Source: an archaeon (lineage in GTDB: Archaea; EX4484-52; WAPT01). From it: a DNA stretch of 64,000 bases. Under the pieces are notes generated by a model. That model was not told the origin of the DNA. It worked only from the letters and a program-made list of their open reading frames with translations, and did no database searches. The position numbers and the translations under genes were made by a program. This document shows positions 51,549 through 57,077 of this stretch, piece by piece (the first letter of the stretch is position 1; each line of letters starts with the position of its first letter). The stretch is from positions 67,420 to 131,419 of the forward strand of contig JAPDKB010000004.1 in NCBI GenBank assembly GCA_029258795.1, in the 5' to 3' direction.

Positions 51549-51668
51549 CCCTATCACCAACGTTACCACTTACTTGTAGTTAATTTTTATCAAAAAGATT
51601 TAAAAAGTTTCTCTCAAGCAGAGCCCCAGAACCAATCATTTTTAAAGCTCCAGACAGAAAGTTTCTCC

Positions 51669-52700
51669 ATGCGCGAGGCCTTATTCTGGAAAAAAGAAGG
51701 GAAAAATGTAAAATGTGAGCTTTGCCCGTTTAATTGTGTTATTCCGGAGGGAAAGGTTGGAAATTGTGGAGTCCGGAAAAATGTAGGAGGAAAGCTTTAC
51801 TCTCTGGTTTATGGGAAAGTTGCGGCTTATCATGTTGATCCCATAGAAAAAAAGCCCCTCTACCATTTTGCTCCAGCCACTCAAACCTTCTCCATAGCCA
51901 CGGTTGGATGCAATTTTCACTGTGTCCACTGCCAGAACTGGGAGCTCTCACAGAGCAAGAGGATAATGGGAATTGAAATGAGCCCCGAGGAGATTGTGGA
52001 GAGGTGCAAAAGAGCTGGTGCGCAGGGCATCTCTTATACTTACACAGAGCCCACAGTTTTCTTCGAGTTCGCTCTTGACACAATGAAGCTCGCAAGAAAG
52101 GAGGATTTGTACAATGTCTTCGTGACGAACGGCTTCATAAATGAAGCTCCTCTAAAACTTGCAGCAAAGTATCTTGATGCTGCCAACGTGGATGTTAAGG
52201 CGTTCAGGGATGAATTTTACAGAGAGATATGCAAAGCACCAAGCCTTGAGCCAGTAAAGAGGACAGTTGAGCTGCTGAACAGGTTGGGAGTGCATGTTGA
52301 GGTCACATACCTCATAATCCCGAACAGGAATGACAGCATGGAGGAAATTGGTGAAATGTGTGAGTGGCTTGTGAGTGTGGATGACGAAATACCTCTCCAC
52401 TTTTCAAGATACCACCCTGATTACATGTTGAACGAGCCCCTCACACCGTTGGATACCCTTTTGAAAGCAAGAGAAACCGCACTTAAAAAAGGTCTGAAGT
52501 ACGTTTATCTGGGCAACGTGATGGTCAGGGAAGCGCTCAACACCTACTGTCCTAGCTGCCACCATCTGCTCATCGAGAGGGATTACATGCAGACGTTGAG
52601 AGTGGATGTGGGTGATAGTGTTGACCAGCCAACATGCCCTGCTTGCGGGTCAAACGTAAGAATCTCTGGCCTGAAATACACCAGGATGGTGATGGAATGA
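51669..52700 (+). CDS. amrS: AmmeMemoRadiSam system radical SAM enzyme
   Basis: The 343-aa protein has N-terminal CELCPFNCVIPEGKVGNCG and the radical SAM motif CNFHCVHCQN (CX3CX2C). The C-terminal zinc ribbon is CPSCHHLLIER to CPACGS. This layout defines the AmmeMemoRadiSam radical SAM enzyme (TIGR04337). Its AMMECR1 partner is at 9019-9651. A TATA (TTTTTAAAG, about 51638-51646) lies about 27 nt from the ATG, hence leaderless. It overlaps the next gene by ATGA. Confidence 0.9.
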   Translation: MREALFWKKEGKNVKCELCPFNCVIPEGKVGNCGVRKNVGGKLYSLVYGKVAAYHVDPIEKKPLYHFAPATQTFSIATVGCNFHCVHCQNWELSQSKRIMGIEMSPEEIVERCKRAGAQGISYTYTEPTVFFEFALDTMKLARKEDLYNVFVTNGFINEAPLKLAAKYLDAANVDVKAFRDEFYREICKAPSLEPVKRTVELLNRLGVHVEVTYLIIPNRNDSMEEIGEMCEWLVSVDDEIPLHFSRYHPDYMLNEPLTPLDTLLKARETALKKGLKYVYLGNVMVREALNTYCPSCHHLLIERDYMQTLRVDVGDSVDQPTCPACGSNVRISGLKYTRMVME

Positions 52701-53578
52701 GGAGAAAATTTGCTTCATTCATTCTACCAATTATCCTGTTTTTCATGATTGGAAATATGGCAATGGGAGAAAGCTTCACCTATATCGACATTCTTGTCAA
52801 TCCCGATAACTCCATCACCGCTGTGATTAACGCGAGGAGCGATTACGATTTTATCTCCTTGATGCTTCCCTACGATGCAGAGGTTGTTGATTTCAGCGTT
52901 GATGGCACACCCTCTTTATCTGCATGCAAAGAAGAAAGAAAGGTTGATGGCACGCTCATAAATTGCAGCGTGGAGAATGGGTCATTCATCACGCTGAAAT
53001 TCACCAGCTCGGATGCGGTTATGATGAGCGGGGATGAGCTCCTTTTTTTAATGCGCCTCATTTTTTACCAGAATTATGATGTGTGTAAAATCAAATTAAC
53101 CCTTCCAGAAAATTACATCATCGCATCTAATGAGCACGCTGAGCCATTGATAATCCCATCTCCATATCAGCTATACACTGCAGGTAACAATCAGATAGTG
53201 CTCTGGAATGTAAAGTGTGGAGAAAATGCTTTGGTGGAGCTTTTCGTTGCAGGGAAGCGCGCTTCAAAGTTTTCCGTGCCATTATATGTTGCTATTCCTA
53301 TAGCAGCAATAGCACTCATTGTTATCTCTTTCTTTTTCTTAAGGAAAAGGAAACACCCCGACATTTTTGACAAATTTTTGGTCAGGGATGAAAAAATGAT
53401 AATTGATCTCCTAAAAAACAAAAAAGAGATGAAGCAAAAAGAGATAGTTAGAGCGACTGGCTTTTCCAAAGCAAAGGTTTCCAGGTTGCTCAGAAATCTG
53501 GAAATGAGGGGAGTGGTGGTCAGAGAAAAGGTAGGGAACGCATGTATTGTGAAGCTTAAGGAAGAGGAAGAAGAATAA
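52697..53578 (+). CDS. Membrane-tethered winged-HTH regulator (sensor-type), copy 1
   Basis: The 293-aa protein has a signal peptide (SFILPIILFFMIGNMAMG), an outer beta domain of about 170 aa and a membrane helix (LYVAIPIAAIALIVISFFFL). A cytoplasmic MarR/IclR-like winged HTH (KQKEIVRATGFSKAKVSRLLRNLEMRG) follows, like archaeal COG2512 proteins. It could sense the envelope and bind DNA at the membrane. It shares its HTH with the protein at 55762. Starts at ATG 52697 within the radical SAM gene end (4-nt overlap). Confidence 0.85.
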   Translation: MRRKFASFILPIILFFMIGNMAMGESFTYIDILVNPDNSITAVINARSDYDFISLMLPYDAEVVDFSVDGTPSLSACKEERKVDGTLINCSVENGSFITLKFTSSDAVMMSGDELLFLMRLIFYQNYDVCKIKLTLPENYIIASNEHAEPLIIPSPYQLYTAGNNQIVLWNVKCGENALVELFVAGKRASKFSVPLYVAIPIAAIALIVISFFFLRKRKHPDIFDKFLVRDEKMIIDLLKNKKEMKQKEIVRATGFSKAKVSRLLRNLEMRGVVVREKVGNACIVKLKEEEEE

Positions 53579-53582
53579 CAAC

Positions 53583-53632
53583 TTGTTTCAGATTGTTTCA
53601 CTTGTTTCACGAAGTTCTTAAATGCTGTTTCA
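53583..53632 (+). promoter_or_regulatory. TTGTTTCA repeat array and promoter of the DUF5667 gene
   Basis: TTGTTTCA occurs at 53583-53590, 53593-53600 and 53602-53609, about one helical turn apart, and CTGTTTCA at 53625-53632. A TATA-like TTCTTAAATG lies between (53615-53624). The SD of the target gene (GAGGTGA) is about 6 nt before ATG 53677. The array looks like an operator for a dimeric or tandem-binding regulator. Confidence 0.6.
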
Positions 53633-53676
53633 TTCAGAATAATGTTTAGAAAGAAAAACTTTAGAGGTGACGTGTC

Positions 53677-55164
53677 ATGAAAATCGCAAGCTTAATCGTG
53701 GTGCTCGCGCTAACCGTATTTGGGCTTGCGCTCGCACCAGCAGCGATGGCGCAGGATGCAGCGGATGCTTCAGCGCAGCAGGACGTTGTAAGTGTAATGA
53801 AGGAAACAGAAAACCCGGGTATTCTGCCAGATAGTCCGTTTTATGGGTTAAAGACAGGCTTTGAGAAGATAAGATTGATGTTGGTGAGGGACAGAATTAA
53901 GCGTGCAGAGATGGCACTGGAACTAGCGCAGAAAAGATTGAAGGAAGCTAAAATACTGGCAGCGATGGGCAAGCCAGAAGCAATGGAGAAAGCCATGAGG
54001 AATTACGATGCCATAATGGAAAGATTGGAAGCTGAGCTGGAGAAGGCACAGGCAGCAAATGACACCGAGAGGGTTGCGATGATAGAGGGCTTGATGGCTC
54101 AGCTCGAGATGCACATGGAAGAGATTGAGGATGCGGAAACAGTTGCGGGCGTGGCTATTCAGGACAACAGGACAAGAGAGGCAGTGCTGCAGAAGCTGGA
54201 TGAGATCAGGAAGAGAATAGAGGAAAGGAAGATGAAGGTTAATGCCAAGAGGGAAATGGTCAAGGAGATGATCAAGAAGCGCTACAACCTGACGGATGAG
54301 CAGGCAGAAGCGATGCTTGAAAAAGCAAGGAAAGAGATGGCAGAGAAAAACATAAAGGCGAGAGCAGAACTCGAGTTGAAAAAGGCAAACCGCACCATAG
54401 TGAGAGTGGAAGCGCTCATATCCAAAATGGAGGAAAGAAATGCTAGCAGCGAGAGGATGGAGCATGCCAATGAGATGTTAGCCACAGCCAAAGAGCTTTA
54501 CCAGGAGGCGATGGACAACTATACTGGTGGAGATTACTTCACTGCATGGGAGCTGGCTAAAGAAAGCCAGAGGATGGCACACCTGGCTGTTGCAAGACCA
54601 TCAGAACAGGCACTATACCGCTTCCTTGAAAGGAAGAAAATGAGGGAGCGCTATGCCTGCGGTCCACAGGATGCAGAAAGGATTGCATCCAAACTTGTGC
54701 CAGGTGCGGACTGCAAGGTAACAGGAGAAATGAAAGGACTCTATGCTGTGAGGTGCAGAGCTGGAGATAAAATTGAGAGATTTGCTGTGAGAGCAAGAGA
54801 TTGCGAGACAAGGAATGTAAAAGACCTTACACAGATGCGAGCAGAAGTTGCGAGAGCAATAAGGGAGAGAAGAGCAATGGGTGCAGGACTTGGAGTTATG
54901 GAACAGGAAAGAGCTATGATAGCTGAAGAGCTGAGGGAAAGGCTCAGAGAACTCAAGGAAGAAAAGGGAAACGTGACTCCAGAGGATGTCAAAAACGTGT
55001 TGAATGAAATCATTCGAGAGAGGGTAGGGCAGTACCAGAACATTATAGAGGAAGGTGCTCAAGAAACCAATGAAACTCCAGCCACAGAAACACCAGCTAA
55101 CAATGAATCTGGACTGAAGGGTGGAAGTGAAGAAGCTCCACCGATGCCAGTTCCGTCAGTTTAA
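53677..55164 (+). CDS. Secreted coiled-coil protein with DUF5667 domain
   Basis: The 495-aa protein has a signal peptide (LIVVLALTVFGLALAPAAMA) and the DUF5667 hallmark NPGILPDSPFYGLKTGFE. Long charged helices follow (AEMALELAQKRLKEA onward) up to a Cys-containing small domain (CGPQDAERIASKLVPGADC) near residue 330. A Glu/Pro/Thr-rich tail ends the protein. It is probably an envelope stress or scaffold protein. Its promoter carries the TTGTTTCA array and it lies between two membrane-tethered regulators. Confidence 0.85.
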   Translation: MKIASLIVVLALTVFGLALAPAAMAQDAADASAQQDVVSVMKETENPGILPDSPFYGLKTGFEKIRLMLVRDRIKRAEMALELAQKRLKEAKILAAMGKPEAMEKAMRNYDAIMERLEAELEKAQAANDTERVAMIEGLMAQLEMHMEEIEDAETVAGVAIQDNRTREAVLQKLDEIRKRIEERKMKVNAKREMVKEMIKKRYNLTDEQAEAMLEKARKEMAEKNIKARAELELKKANRTIVRVEALISKMEERNASSERMEHANEMLATAKELYQEAMDNYTGGDYFTAWELAKESQRMAHLAVARPSEQALYRFLERKKMRERYACGPQDAERIASKLVPGADCKVTGEMKGLYAVRCRAGDKIERFAVRARDCETRNVKDLTQMRAEVARAIRERRAMGAGLGVMEQERAMIAEELRERLRELKEEKGNVTPEDVKNVLNEIIRERVGQYQNIIEEGAQETNETPATETPANNESGLKGGSEEAPPMPVPSV

Positions 55165-55254
55165 TGCTGACGGGTCTTCCCTTTCTTTATTTTTAATTTT
55201 TGAAACCAACGCATGACTTTTCCTGCACGAAGCTTGCTTATCCAAAAACAAACT

Positions 55255-55306
55255 TATTTAAATTCTAATTGTTTCATTAAAATGCAGTGGTTCTTAAAAC
55301 GTTTCA
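55255..55306 (+). promoter_or_regulatory. TTGTTTCA-containing promoter of the second regulator operon
   Basis: A TATA box (TTATTTAAATTC, about 55254-55265) is followed by TTGTTTCA (55269-55276), then TTCTTAAAAC (55291-55300) and CGTTTCA (55300-55306). The order TTGTTTCA, TTCTTAAA, GTTTCA repeats that of the DUF5667 promoter. The SD GAGGTGA precedes GTG 55319. Confidence 0.5.
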
Positions 55307-55318
55307 AGAGGTGATTAT

Positions 55319-55765
55319 GTGGAAAAAATCACGAAAGAAGATGAAAAAAAGCTTCTTGATGATGGATGGATAAAGATGTGGATTCTTTTTGATGTTCAGA
55401 GTAATGATAGAGGGCATGCTGAAAAAGCACTCCACGACCATGTTGAAAAGATGAAGAAGGAGAAATGGTTAAAGGTGTCCAAAGAAAATTATGTTGAGAC
55501 CGAGGAGGTGGATGCTCCACCGGCTTTAAGGGCGAGAGGCATCCAGAAAATGTATTCCAAACTTTATGAGGCCGTGGTGTTTGTAAAGGGTGTTGAAGCA
55601 GCCATGAACTTTGTGGTCAATTATGCTCCCTCAGCTCTTGAAATAATAGCTCCTGATGAAATGAAGGTCAAGACCTCAGAGCTGCAGAATGCTCTGGTGA
55701 CTGTAGCAGATATATTGCACAAGTTCGCGCAGATGGGGCTGGGCGGAGTGGTGATCTCCAGATGA
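55319..55765 (+). CDS. Conserved-looking soluble protein (148 aa)
   Basis: The GTG at 55319 follows GAGGTGA. The protein has a charged alpha/beta N-terminal part (GWIKMWILFDVQSNDRGHAE) and a helical C-terminal part (ALVTVADILHKFAQMGLGGVVISR). It shows no signal peptide. The ATGA overlap couples it to the regulator copy 2, so it may act as its partner. No family recognised with confidence. Confidence 0.7.
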   Translation: MEKITKEDEKKLLDDGWIKMWILFDVQSNDRGHAEKALHDHVEKMKKEKWLKVSKENYVETEEVDAPPALRARGIQKMYSKLYEAVVFVKGVEAAMNFVVNYAPSALEIIAPDEMKVKTSELQNALVTVADILHKFAQMGLGGVVISR

Positions 55766-56664
55766 AATCAGCATATTTGATTTTGGGAGTTTTGGTTGCG
55801 TTTTTTGTAGTGAGCACTATAACCTTCGCTTCCATCATAGATGAGCATCAGATCAACATTTTTCTCAGCAAGGAGGGGTCAGCTATCATAAAAGCCAGAG
55901 TCAAATATGCGGAGCTAACAACCGAAGATGTACCGTACTTCATGATGGTGGATGTTAGGAGGGTTAATGCCTATGCCGACGGAACTCAGTTAAATTGCAC
56001 AGTTTCTCAAAGACCTTACGGAACCTATATTTCATGCATGAGGCCCGACACCACCACACCACTATACAATTACACGGTGGAGTTCGAAATCTACACATCA
56101 AAGCTAACAACCTATAATGGCGGAGTTTATCGTTTCCTCTACAACTACGGTGTCAGGGAGCCCACAAAGAAAATCAGTGTTGTGCTTTACCTTCCAGAGG
56201 GATACGCGTTGGTTAAAGAATCGAGATTCAGGGAGAAGCCATATTATCCGCAAAACGGCATTACAGGTAGCGATGGCAGACGCCTCACCATAACTTGGGG
56301 AATATCTAACCCGAAACTGGGTGAGACCCTCAGCTTCAGCGCTTTGTATGAGTATGTTGGCACCACAAGCACAAACATGACTCCTTATTATCTTAGCTTA
56401 CCTGTGATGCTCGCGCTTTTTTACATCGTGTTGAGGCGTAGAAAAACTGATGTGATGGAAGTGCTCACCGATGATGAACGCGCCATAATAGATGTGCTGA
56501 AAGAAGCCGGAAACAGGATGATAAAGCAGAAGGATATTGTTAAGGCAACGAACTTTTCAAAGGCAAAGGTTTCCAGATTGCTTGCGGAGCTGGAGGAAAG
56601 AGGGCTGGTAAAGAGGGAAAGGGTAGGGAGAACAAACCGCGTGAAGCTCGTGAAAAAAGTTTAG
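55762..56664 (+). CDS. Membrane-tethered winged-HTH regulator (sensor-type), copy 2
   Basis: The 300-aa protein mirrors copy 1: signal helix (LILGVLVAFFVVSTITFA), outer beta domain, membrane helix (LSLPVMLALFYIVLRRRK) and winged HTH (KQKDIVKATNFSKAKVSRLLAELEERG). The FSKAKVSRLL recognition stretch is identical in both copies, so they may bind the same DNA boxes. Convergent overlap of 4 bp with the next gene. Confidence 0.85.
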   Translation: MKSAYLILGVLVAFFVVSTITFASIIDEHQINIFLSKEGSAIIKARVKYAELTTEDVPYFMMVDVRRVNAYADGTQLNCTVSQRPYGTYISCMRPDTTTPLYNYTVEFEIYTSKLTTYNGGVYRFLYNYGVREPTKKISVVLYLPEGYALVKESRFREKPYYPQNGITGSDGRRLTITWGISNPKLGETLSFSALYEYVGTTSTNMTPYYLSLPVMLALFYIVLRRRKTDVMEVLTDDERAIIDVLKEAGNRMIKQKDIVKATNFSKAKVSRLLAELEERGLVKRERVGRTNRVKLVKKV

Positions 56665-57077
56665 CCCTCCTGCTTTTTCTCTGCCCTTGCTATTCTTGGC
56701 ACGGGAAGTATGGGTGGTAGCTGTAGTTCGTTTGCTATGAAGAAAGCTTTTGGAGTCACACTCCTGAAGATGAAGTTCATGACCTCAGTGTTGATGTTTT
56801 CAGGAAGTTTTTTGTTTTTCTGCCATTCCTTGTACGCTTTATCCGCATCTCCCATGTAAACCAAGTTTCCATCAATCTTCAGTTTTCCCACGTCTGGATT
56901 GAAGCTCACATCGAAAGAGAACTTCACTATCAGCACGTCTCTCGGCTTTTCCGCCACGCCTTCAAGCTTCGATTTTTCCACATCCGCAATTGAAGGGGTG
57001 AGCTTAACCTCGACTCTTGGGGCGGCACCCTTTCTTTCCGCCTCTATTTTATCTATGGTCAACCCTATCACTGCCAT
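56661..57077 (-). CDS. Conserved archaeal protein, SecB-like pattern
   Basis: The 138-aa protein starts MAVIGLTIDKIEAER, has a beta-rich centre (VLIVKFSFDVSFNPDVGKLKI) and ends with a helix plus LQLPPILPVPRI. The pattern is seen in small archaeal proteins thought to have a SecB-like fold, so a chaperone role is possible. That is recall of pattern, not proof. Confidence 0.65.
   Translation of the reverse strand: MAVIGLTIDKIEAERKGAAPRVEVKLTPSIADVEKSKLEGVAEKPRDVLIVKFSFDVSFNPDVGKLKIDGNLVYMGDADKAYKEWQKNKKLPENINTEVMNFIFRSVTPKAFFIANELQLPPILPVPRIARAEKKQEG

Follow-up and report, generated by a model that had tools for sequence, protein, structure and literature searches.

The results presented here suggest that a small gene module of a DPANN archaeon is controlled from the cell membrane. 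The module lies in a 64,000-nucleotide stretch of contig JAPDKB010000004.1 (positions 67,420 to 131,419; hereafter the window), from a genome of 1.17 Mb and 96% completeness, and comprises, in order, a radical SAM gene, REGA, an array of promoter boxes, a DUF5667 gene, a pair of boxes, HYP148, REGB and a convergent gene, HYP138. Judging from sequence comparisons, we think it probable that REGA and REGB form a one-component circuit run from the membrane, in which both would bind the boxes, REGA activating the DUF5667 gene and REGB repressing or tuning its own expression.

REGA (52697-53578, + strand; 293 amino acids) and REGB (55762-56664, + strand; 300 amino acids) are both in frame and, as the original prediction had it, membrane-tethered. 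Each begins with a hydrophobic signal, followed by an outer domain, one more transmembrane (TM) segment (residues 196-214 in REGA, 206-224 or ~206-227 in REGB) and a C-terminal winged helix-turn-helix (wHTH; residues 231-296 in REGB). This last domain exceeds the Pfam cut-off of 27.6 for DUF7343 (PF24034) in both proteins, with 49.5 bits (E 3.9e-13) for REGA and 62.6 bits (E 3.1e-17) for REGB, and the profile matches all 19 of the 19 aligned REG proteins. REGA and REGB share the identical recognition stretch FSKAKVSRLL, again as predicted. A predicted DNA-binding domain and at least one TM segment in a single polypeptide place the REGs among the transmembrane transcription regulators (TTRs). 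The REGA of the window clusters in a tree with the REGAs of family f3 and with L051 of another phylum (support 94/82), and REGB forms a separate clade (88/95); we regard this split as tentative.

The outer domain of REGB (residues ~21-204) is a beta domain, spanning residues 25-198, in the AlphaFold2 (AF2) model, which has a predicted local distance difference test (pLDDT) score of 87. Two cysteines (C79/C92 in REGB, C77/C90 in REGA) are invariant in all 19 aligned regulators and may form a disulfide. The modelled ectodomain resembles the membrane-proximal domain of Ost1/ribophorin I (Z 17.3 over 171 residues, root-mean-square deviation 2.6 A) at 8% identity and with no sequence-profile match in Pfam; the N-domains of M1 aminopeptidases fit more poorly (Z about 13). 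On this predicted fold likeness, it may be the prokaryotic equivalent of a domain in an oligosaccharyltransferase subunit. Unlike Ost1/ribophorin I, a REG ends in a wHTH.

Two boxed promoters lie between the regulators. The first, upstream of the DUF5667 gene, contains three TTGTTTCA boxes (53583-53609, + strand) that start at 53583, 53593 and 53602, which is the predicted spacing of 9-10 bp. They are followed by a putative B recognition element (BRE) and TATA element, CGAAG-TTCTTAAA (53610-53622, + strand), placed by analogy with the position of TTTATATA in family f3, and by a fourth, degenerate box, CTGTTTCA (53625-53632, + strand), downstream of this putative TATA. Single copies of TTGTTTCA are common (8 in the window versus 5.8 expected), so one copy means little, and the word alone, with 68 sites genome-wide, was discarded as a regulon marker. 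The tandem array is not due to chance, because the pattern GTTYCAN{3,5}GTTYCA occurs in the array and nowhere else in the 1.17-Mb genome.

The second promoter has a putative TATA, TTATTTAAATT (55254-55264, + strand), followed by box 1, TTGTTTCA (55269-55276, + strand), which several families retain upstream of HYP148, and by box 2, ACGTTTCA (55299-55306, + strand), exactly 30 bp after box 1. It was correctly recognised in the original prediction as a boxed promoter, but the HYP148 gene was overlooked; since this conserved gene lies between the promoter and REGB, the promoter serves HYP148-REGB. Self-control, as first proposed for both regulators, is supported for REGB alone, via HYP148. The promoter of the radical SAM-REGA operon has no box. 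The two promoters had also been said to share TTGTTTCA, TTCTTAAA and GTTTCA in the same order. The positions hold (TTCTTAAA at 53615 and 55291, GTTTCA at 53627 and 55301), but relatives do not conserve TTCTTAAA, which probably serves as the TATA element of the first promoter and occurs in the second by coincidence.

The comparative check proposed with the original prediction bears out the boxes themselves: they are kept with the regulators upstream of both DUF5667 and HYP148-REGB, and the array is absent where REGA is absent. Within the order, 34 genomes were scanned for the strict tandem pattern TTGTTYCAN{1,3}YTGTTYCA, which turned up at five places. At four of them, in two families, it lies in the promoter of the syntenic DUF5667 gene next to REGA; the fifth is coding sequence inside rpoK and was set aside. 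REGA adjoins DUF5667 in the species of the window and in family f3 (G004, G019 and G026; in a further f3 genome, G022, the contig terminates inside REGA), and three boxes recur in the intergenic regions between them, in f3 as three copies of TTGTTYCA at 10 bp, with differing spacers. The f3 TATA, TTTATATA, starts at a distance of 13 bp from the core of the last box; the array therefore lies just upstream of BRE/TATA. Two genomes of the same genus as the window (G001 and G002) retain the radical SAM gene, DUF5667, HYP148 and REGB and lack REGA, of which no recognisable remnant was seen on inspection of the gap. Both also lack the array, yet keep DUF5667.

At the HYP148-REGB promoter, TTGTTYCA is present on the coding strand in 13 of 28 HYP148 upstream regions versus 4 of 205 others (Fisher 1e-10; p-values here and below overstate the evidence because related sequences are not independent, and more weight lies on the occurrence in several families and in a second phylum). 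An unbiased de novo word count upstream of HYP148 returned TTGTTTCA as the top same-strand 8-mer. The boxes here are mostly downstream of TATA. A second box follows at 30 bp in f1 and part of f6 (G001, G002, G007, G021, G029, G031 and G032; 30-31 bp in G025); the 30-bp pair pattern has 28 sites, 9 of which are HYP148 promoters, and the reversed control also gives matches. Two f3 HYP148 promoters (L046 and L049) carry an inverted pair, TGGAACG...CGTTTCA, around TATA rather than a direct pair, which suggests that site geometry is variable.

The association extends to another DPANN phylum, which was not used to define the motif. DUF5667 genes from 156 of its genomes were scored for at least two GTTBC cores 9-11 bp apart upstream, and for a REG-type wHTH within the fetched stretch. 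Phased arrays preceded 7 of 15 DUF5667 genes with a REG nearby and 0 of 47 without one (p 1.3e-5). Pooled with the order, the counts were 11/19 versus 1/61, against a mean of 0.05 in dinucleotide shuffles, 1/205 at other genes and 0-1 for permuted words. The sole array without a REG (L139) sits in an upstream reading frame and was rejected. The distances between cores have maxima at 10 and 20 bp, and the boxes keep one orientation relative to the gene. Since the gene order may be REG-DUF5667, DUF5667-REG or divergent, the link between REG and array does not reflect one frozen arrangement. Families f29 and f35 have the array in front of a gene for a secreted, DUF5667-like protein that has diverged. 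These diverged genes beside a REG (L299 3877-5182, L303 1282-2125, L304 1773-2658 and L305 6371-8597) have GTTTCA arrays with a period of ~11 bp and an inverted GAAACGGAC close downstream.

Box and recognition helix covary over ten families, a pattern that was spotted post hoc. Helices of the form F-S/T-K/R-x-K-x-S/T-R (f1, f3, f11, f29, f30, f35 and f43) go mostly with a T before GTT (TTGTTTCA, CTGTTTCA, TTGTTGCA), and W/F-S-K-x-K-x-S-K helices with a PYxKTN-type wing (f15, f37 and f22) go with GGTTKC boxes (ACGGTTGC, ATGGTTTC). Such covariation is what direct recognition would predict.

These results are consistent with the following mechanism, in which we infer binding, its sign, the assignment of regulators to sites and the signal from sequence. 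REGA, its ectodomain facing out and its DUF7343 winged helix in the cytoplasm, would bind the three direct repeats (core TTGTTYCA) on one DNA face, just upstream of BRE/TATA, and activate the neighbouring gene of the secreted DUF5667 protein, probably by helping to recruit TFB/TBP. REGB would bind its own boxes downstream of TATA, the first lying between that element and the predicted start and the second 30 bp further on, and so repress or tune HYP148-REGB. Signals would be read by the beta-sandwich ectodomain with its conserved cysteine pair. The spacing of three boxes at one helical turn suggests cooperative binding to one face of the DNA, which would suit proteins held in the plane of the membrane by a TM segment.

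The signs were assigned by analogy. Archaeal activators typically bind upstream of BRE, while repressors occupy the promoter itself or sites downstream of it (PMC5512572). Since the array is upstream of TATA and the HYP148 boxes are mostly downstream of it, activation by REGA and self-limitation by REGB appear likeliest. The opposite arrangement, whereby REGA would repress DUF5667 by blocking access of TFB to BRE and REGB would activate its own operon, seems unlikely to us. The array does abut BRE, so a steric block is possible, and the putative TATA is followed by the fourth box. However, multiple sites just upstream of BRE are the layout described for the activators EarA and Ptr2 (PMC5512572), and boxes downstream of TATA fit repression. 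Several further observations weigh against the proposed circuit as a whole. The DUF5667 TATA in the window is placed by analogy, with the fourth box beyond it, and long branches inside the REGA clade make the split from REGB tentative. DUF5667 is kept without REGA or the array in many genomes, so this control is not obligatory, and exact boxes are absent from the HYP148-REGB promoters of f2 and several f6 genomes. Several REG-DUF5667 pairs of the second phylum (e.g. L190, L202, L213 and L225) have no array. Finally, a relaxed triple GTTBC pattern gave 57 sites in whole genomes of that phylum, similar to its reversed control, so that only sites beside a REG are informative.

If the boxes were instead bound by a separate soluble regulator of the TrmB, MarR or Lrs14 type, encoded elsewhere, the membrane proteins would be neighbours with another role. 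The genome does encode other wHTH proteins, including two weaker DUF7343 matches (C2 and C7), but the arrays track an adjacent REG, array and REGA are co-absent in G001 and G002, and box and helix covary; we give this explanation little credence. Far less plausible still is that no protein ligand exists and that the arrays are either left over from repeat DNA or act at the RNA level as leader or terminator elements. Slippage can produce short direct repeats, and a single orientation relative to the gene could be read this way, but the boxes and their 10-bp period persist across families and into the second phylum while the spacers differ, and the f3 array is upstream of TATA.

The predicted target of REGA, the DUF5667 protein (53677-55164, + strand), is a secreted helical protein, for which hydropathy shows a signal peptide but no further TM segment. 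It matches PF18915 with 70.3 bits against a cut-off of 27 (E 1.9e-19), in agreement with its initial description as a DUF5667 surface protein. HYP148 (55319-55765, + strand; 148 amino acids) is a conserved cytoplasmic protein whose gene overlaps REGB and pairs with it throughout the order. A ferredoxin-like fold is predicted from the order of strands and helices in its AF2 model (pLDDT 84); neither by sequence nor by fold did it give a Pfam or PDB match over the cut-off. Its invariant residues in A1 are E84, P104, E108, P112, Q123, H134, G142 and G143. HYP148-bearing relatives that carry names include Candidatus Aenigmatarchaeota, Nanohal(o)archaeota-labelled and other DPANN metagenome-assembled genomes. 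HYP148 nearly always adjoins REGB within the order and occurs without a REG in the more distant relatives L095, L097 and L098. It might act on REGB as a ligand-sensing co-regulator, but this is a guess. A broader and rather doubtful scheme would make the DUF5667 protein both output and ligand, docking on the Ost1-like ectodomain of its own regulator in an extracytoplasmic feedback, with HYP148 as intracellular co-regulator of REGB and the whole serving an ancient DPANN envelope homeostasis.

The gene upstream of REGA encodes an AmmeMemoRadiSam-type radical SAM protein (51669-52700, + strand; TIGR04337, E 2.4e-98, over the cut-off). It overlaps REGA and is likely on the same transcript. Being syntenic beside the module in f1, f3 and f6, it is a stable neighbour across families. 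HYP148-REGB is present in most families of the order, mostly together with HYP138 (56661-57077, - strand), a convergent conserved gene with no Pfam match that follows REGB in synteny order-wide. Two large secreted or TM beta-domain proteins, S48309 and S50292 (48309-51569, - strand), adjoin the module in several families; they have weak CARDB/DUF499-type matches, and no box was seen in the shared promoter region at 51569-51669.

Regulators of this kind are already known, since archaeal membrane-bound one-component regulators have been described (ArnR/ArnR1; PMC6396743) and TTRs are widespread, being found in 367 of 404 archaeal species with single-pass forms commonest (PMC10269533). ArnR and ArnR1 of Sulfolobus acidocaldarius are, like the REGs, a paralogous pair of membrane-bound one-component regulators, and they act on surface-structure promoters through two boxes that precede BRE/TATA. 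In ArnR the HTH is N-terminal and accompanied by a HAMP domain, and the proposed boxes are inverted repeats, TCGAC-N5-GTCGA (PMC6396743). The REGs differ in their C-terminal DUF7343 wHTH, in having no HAMP match in Pfam, in direct TTGTTYCA repeats with a 10-bp period and in their predicted target, a secreted DUF5667 protein. EarA of methanogens and Thermococcales likewise uses several short 6-bp sites just upstream of BRE and activates a surface structure, as proposed for REGA, and is thought to recruit TFB; its site is TACATA, its target is the archaellum operon and no membrane anchor is described in the text consulted (PMC5512572, PMC6396743). The REG site, in contrast, is TTGTTTCA, and the REGs carry a TM segment. 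The TTR survey describes the same combination of DNA-binding domain and TM in one polypeptide, and the text consulted reports neither binding sites nor a DUF5667 circuit in DPANN (PMC10269533).

The original prediction knew of no description of this circuit, and the literature we searched, which covered few subscription journals, agrees: it contained neither the DUF7343-DUF5667 pairing, the phased array nor HYP148, DPANN included, and did not mention DUF7343 or DUF5667 at all. To our knowledge, there is hardly any work on how DPANN archaea control transcription, as few of them can be cultured. Here one small module, seen in two phyla, brings together a regulator, a predicted binding box, a target and natural cases of co-absence. 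With two short proteins and two promoters, membrane-tethered regulation in archaea can thus be put to the test in vitro, and DUF7343, DUF5667 and HYP148 gain a first link to function.

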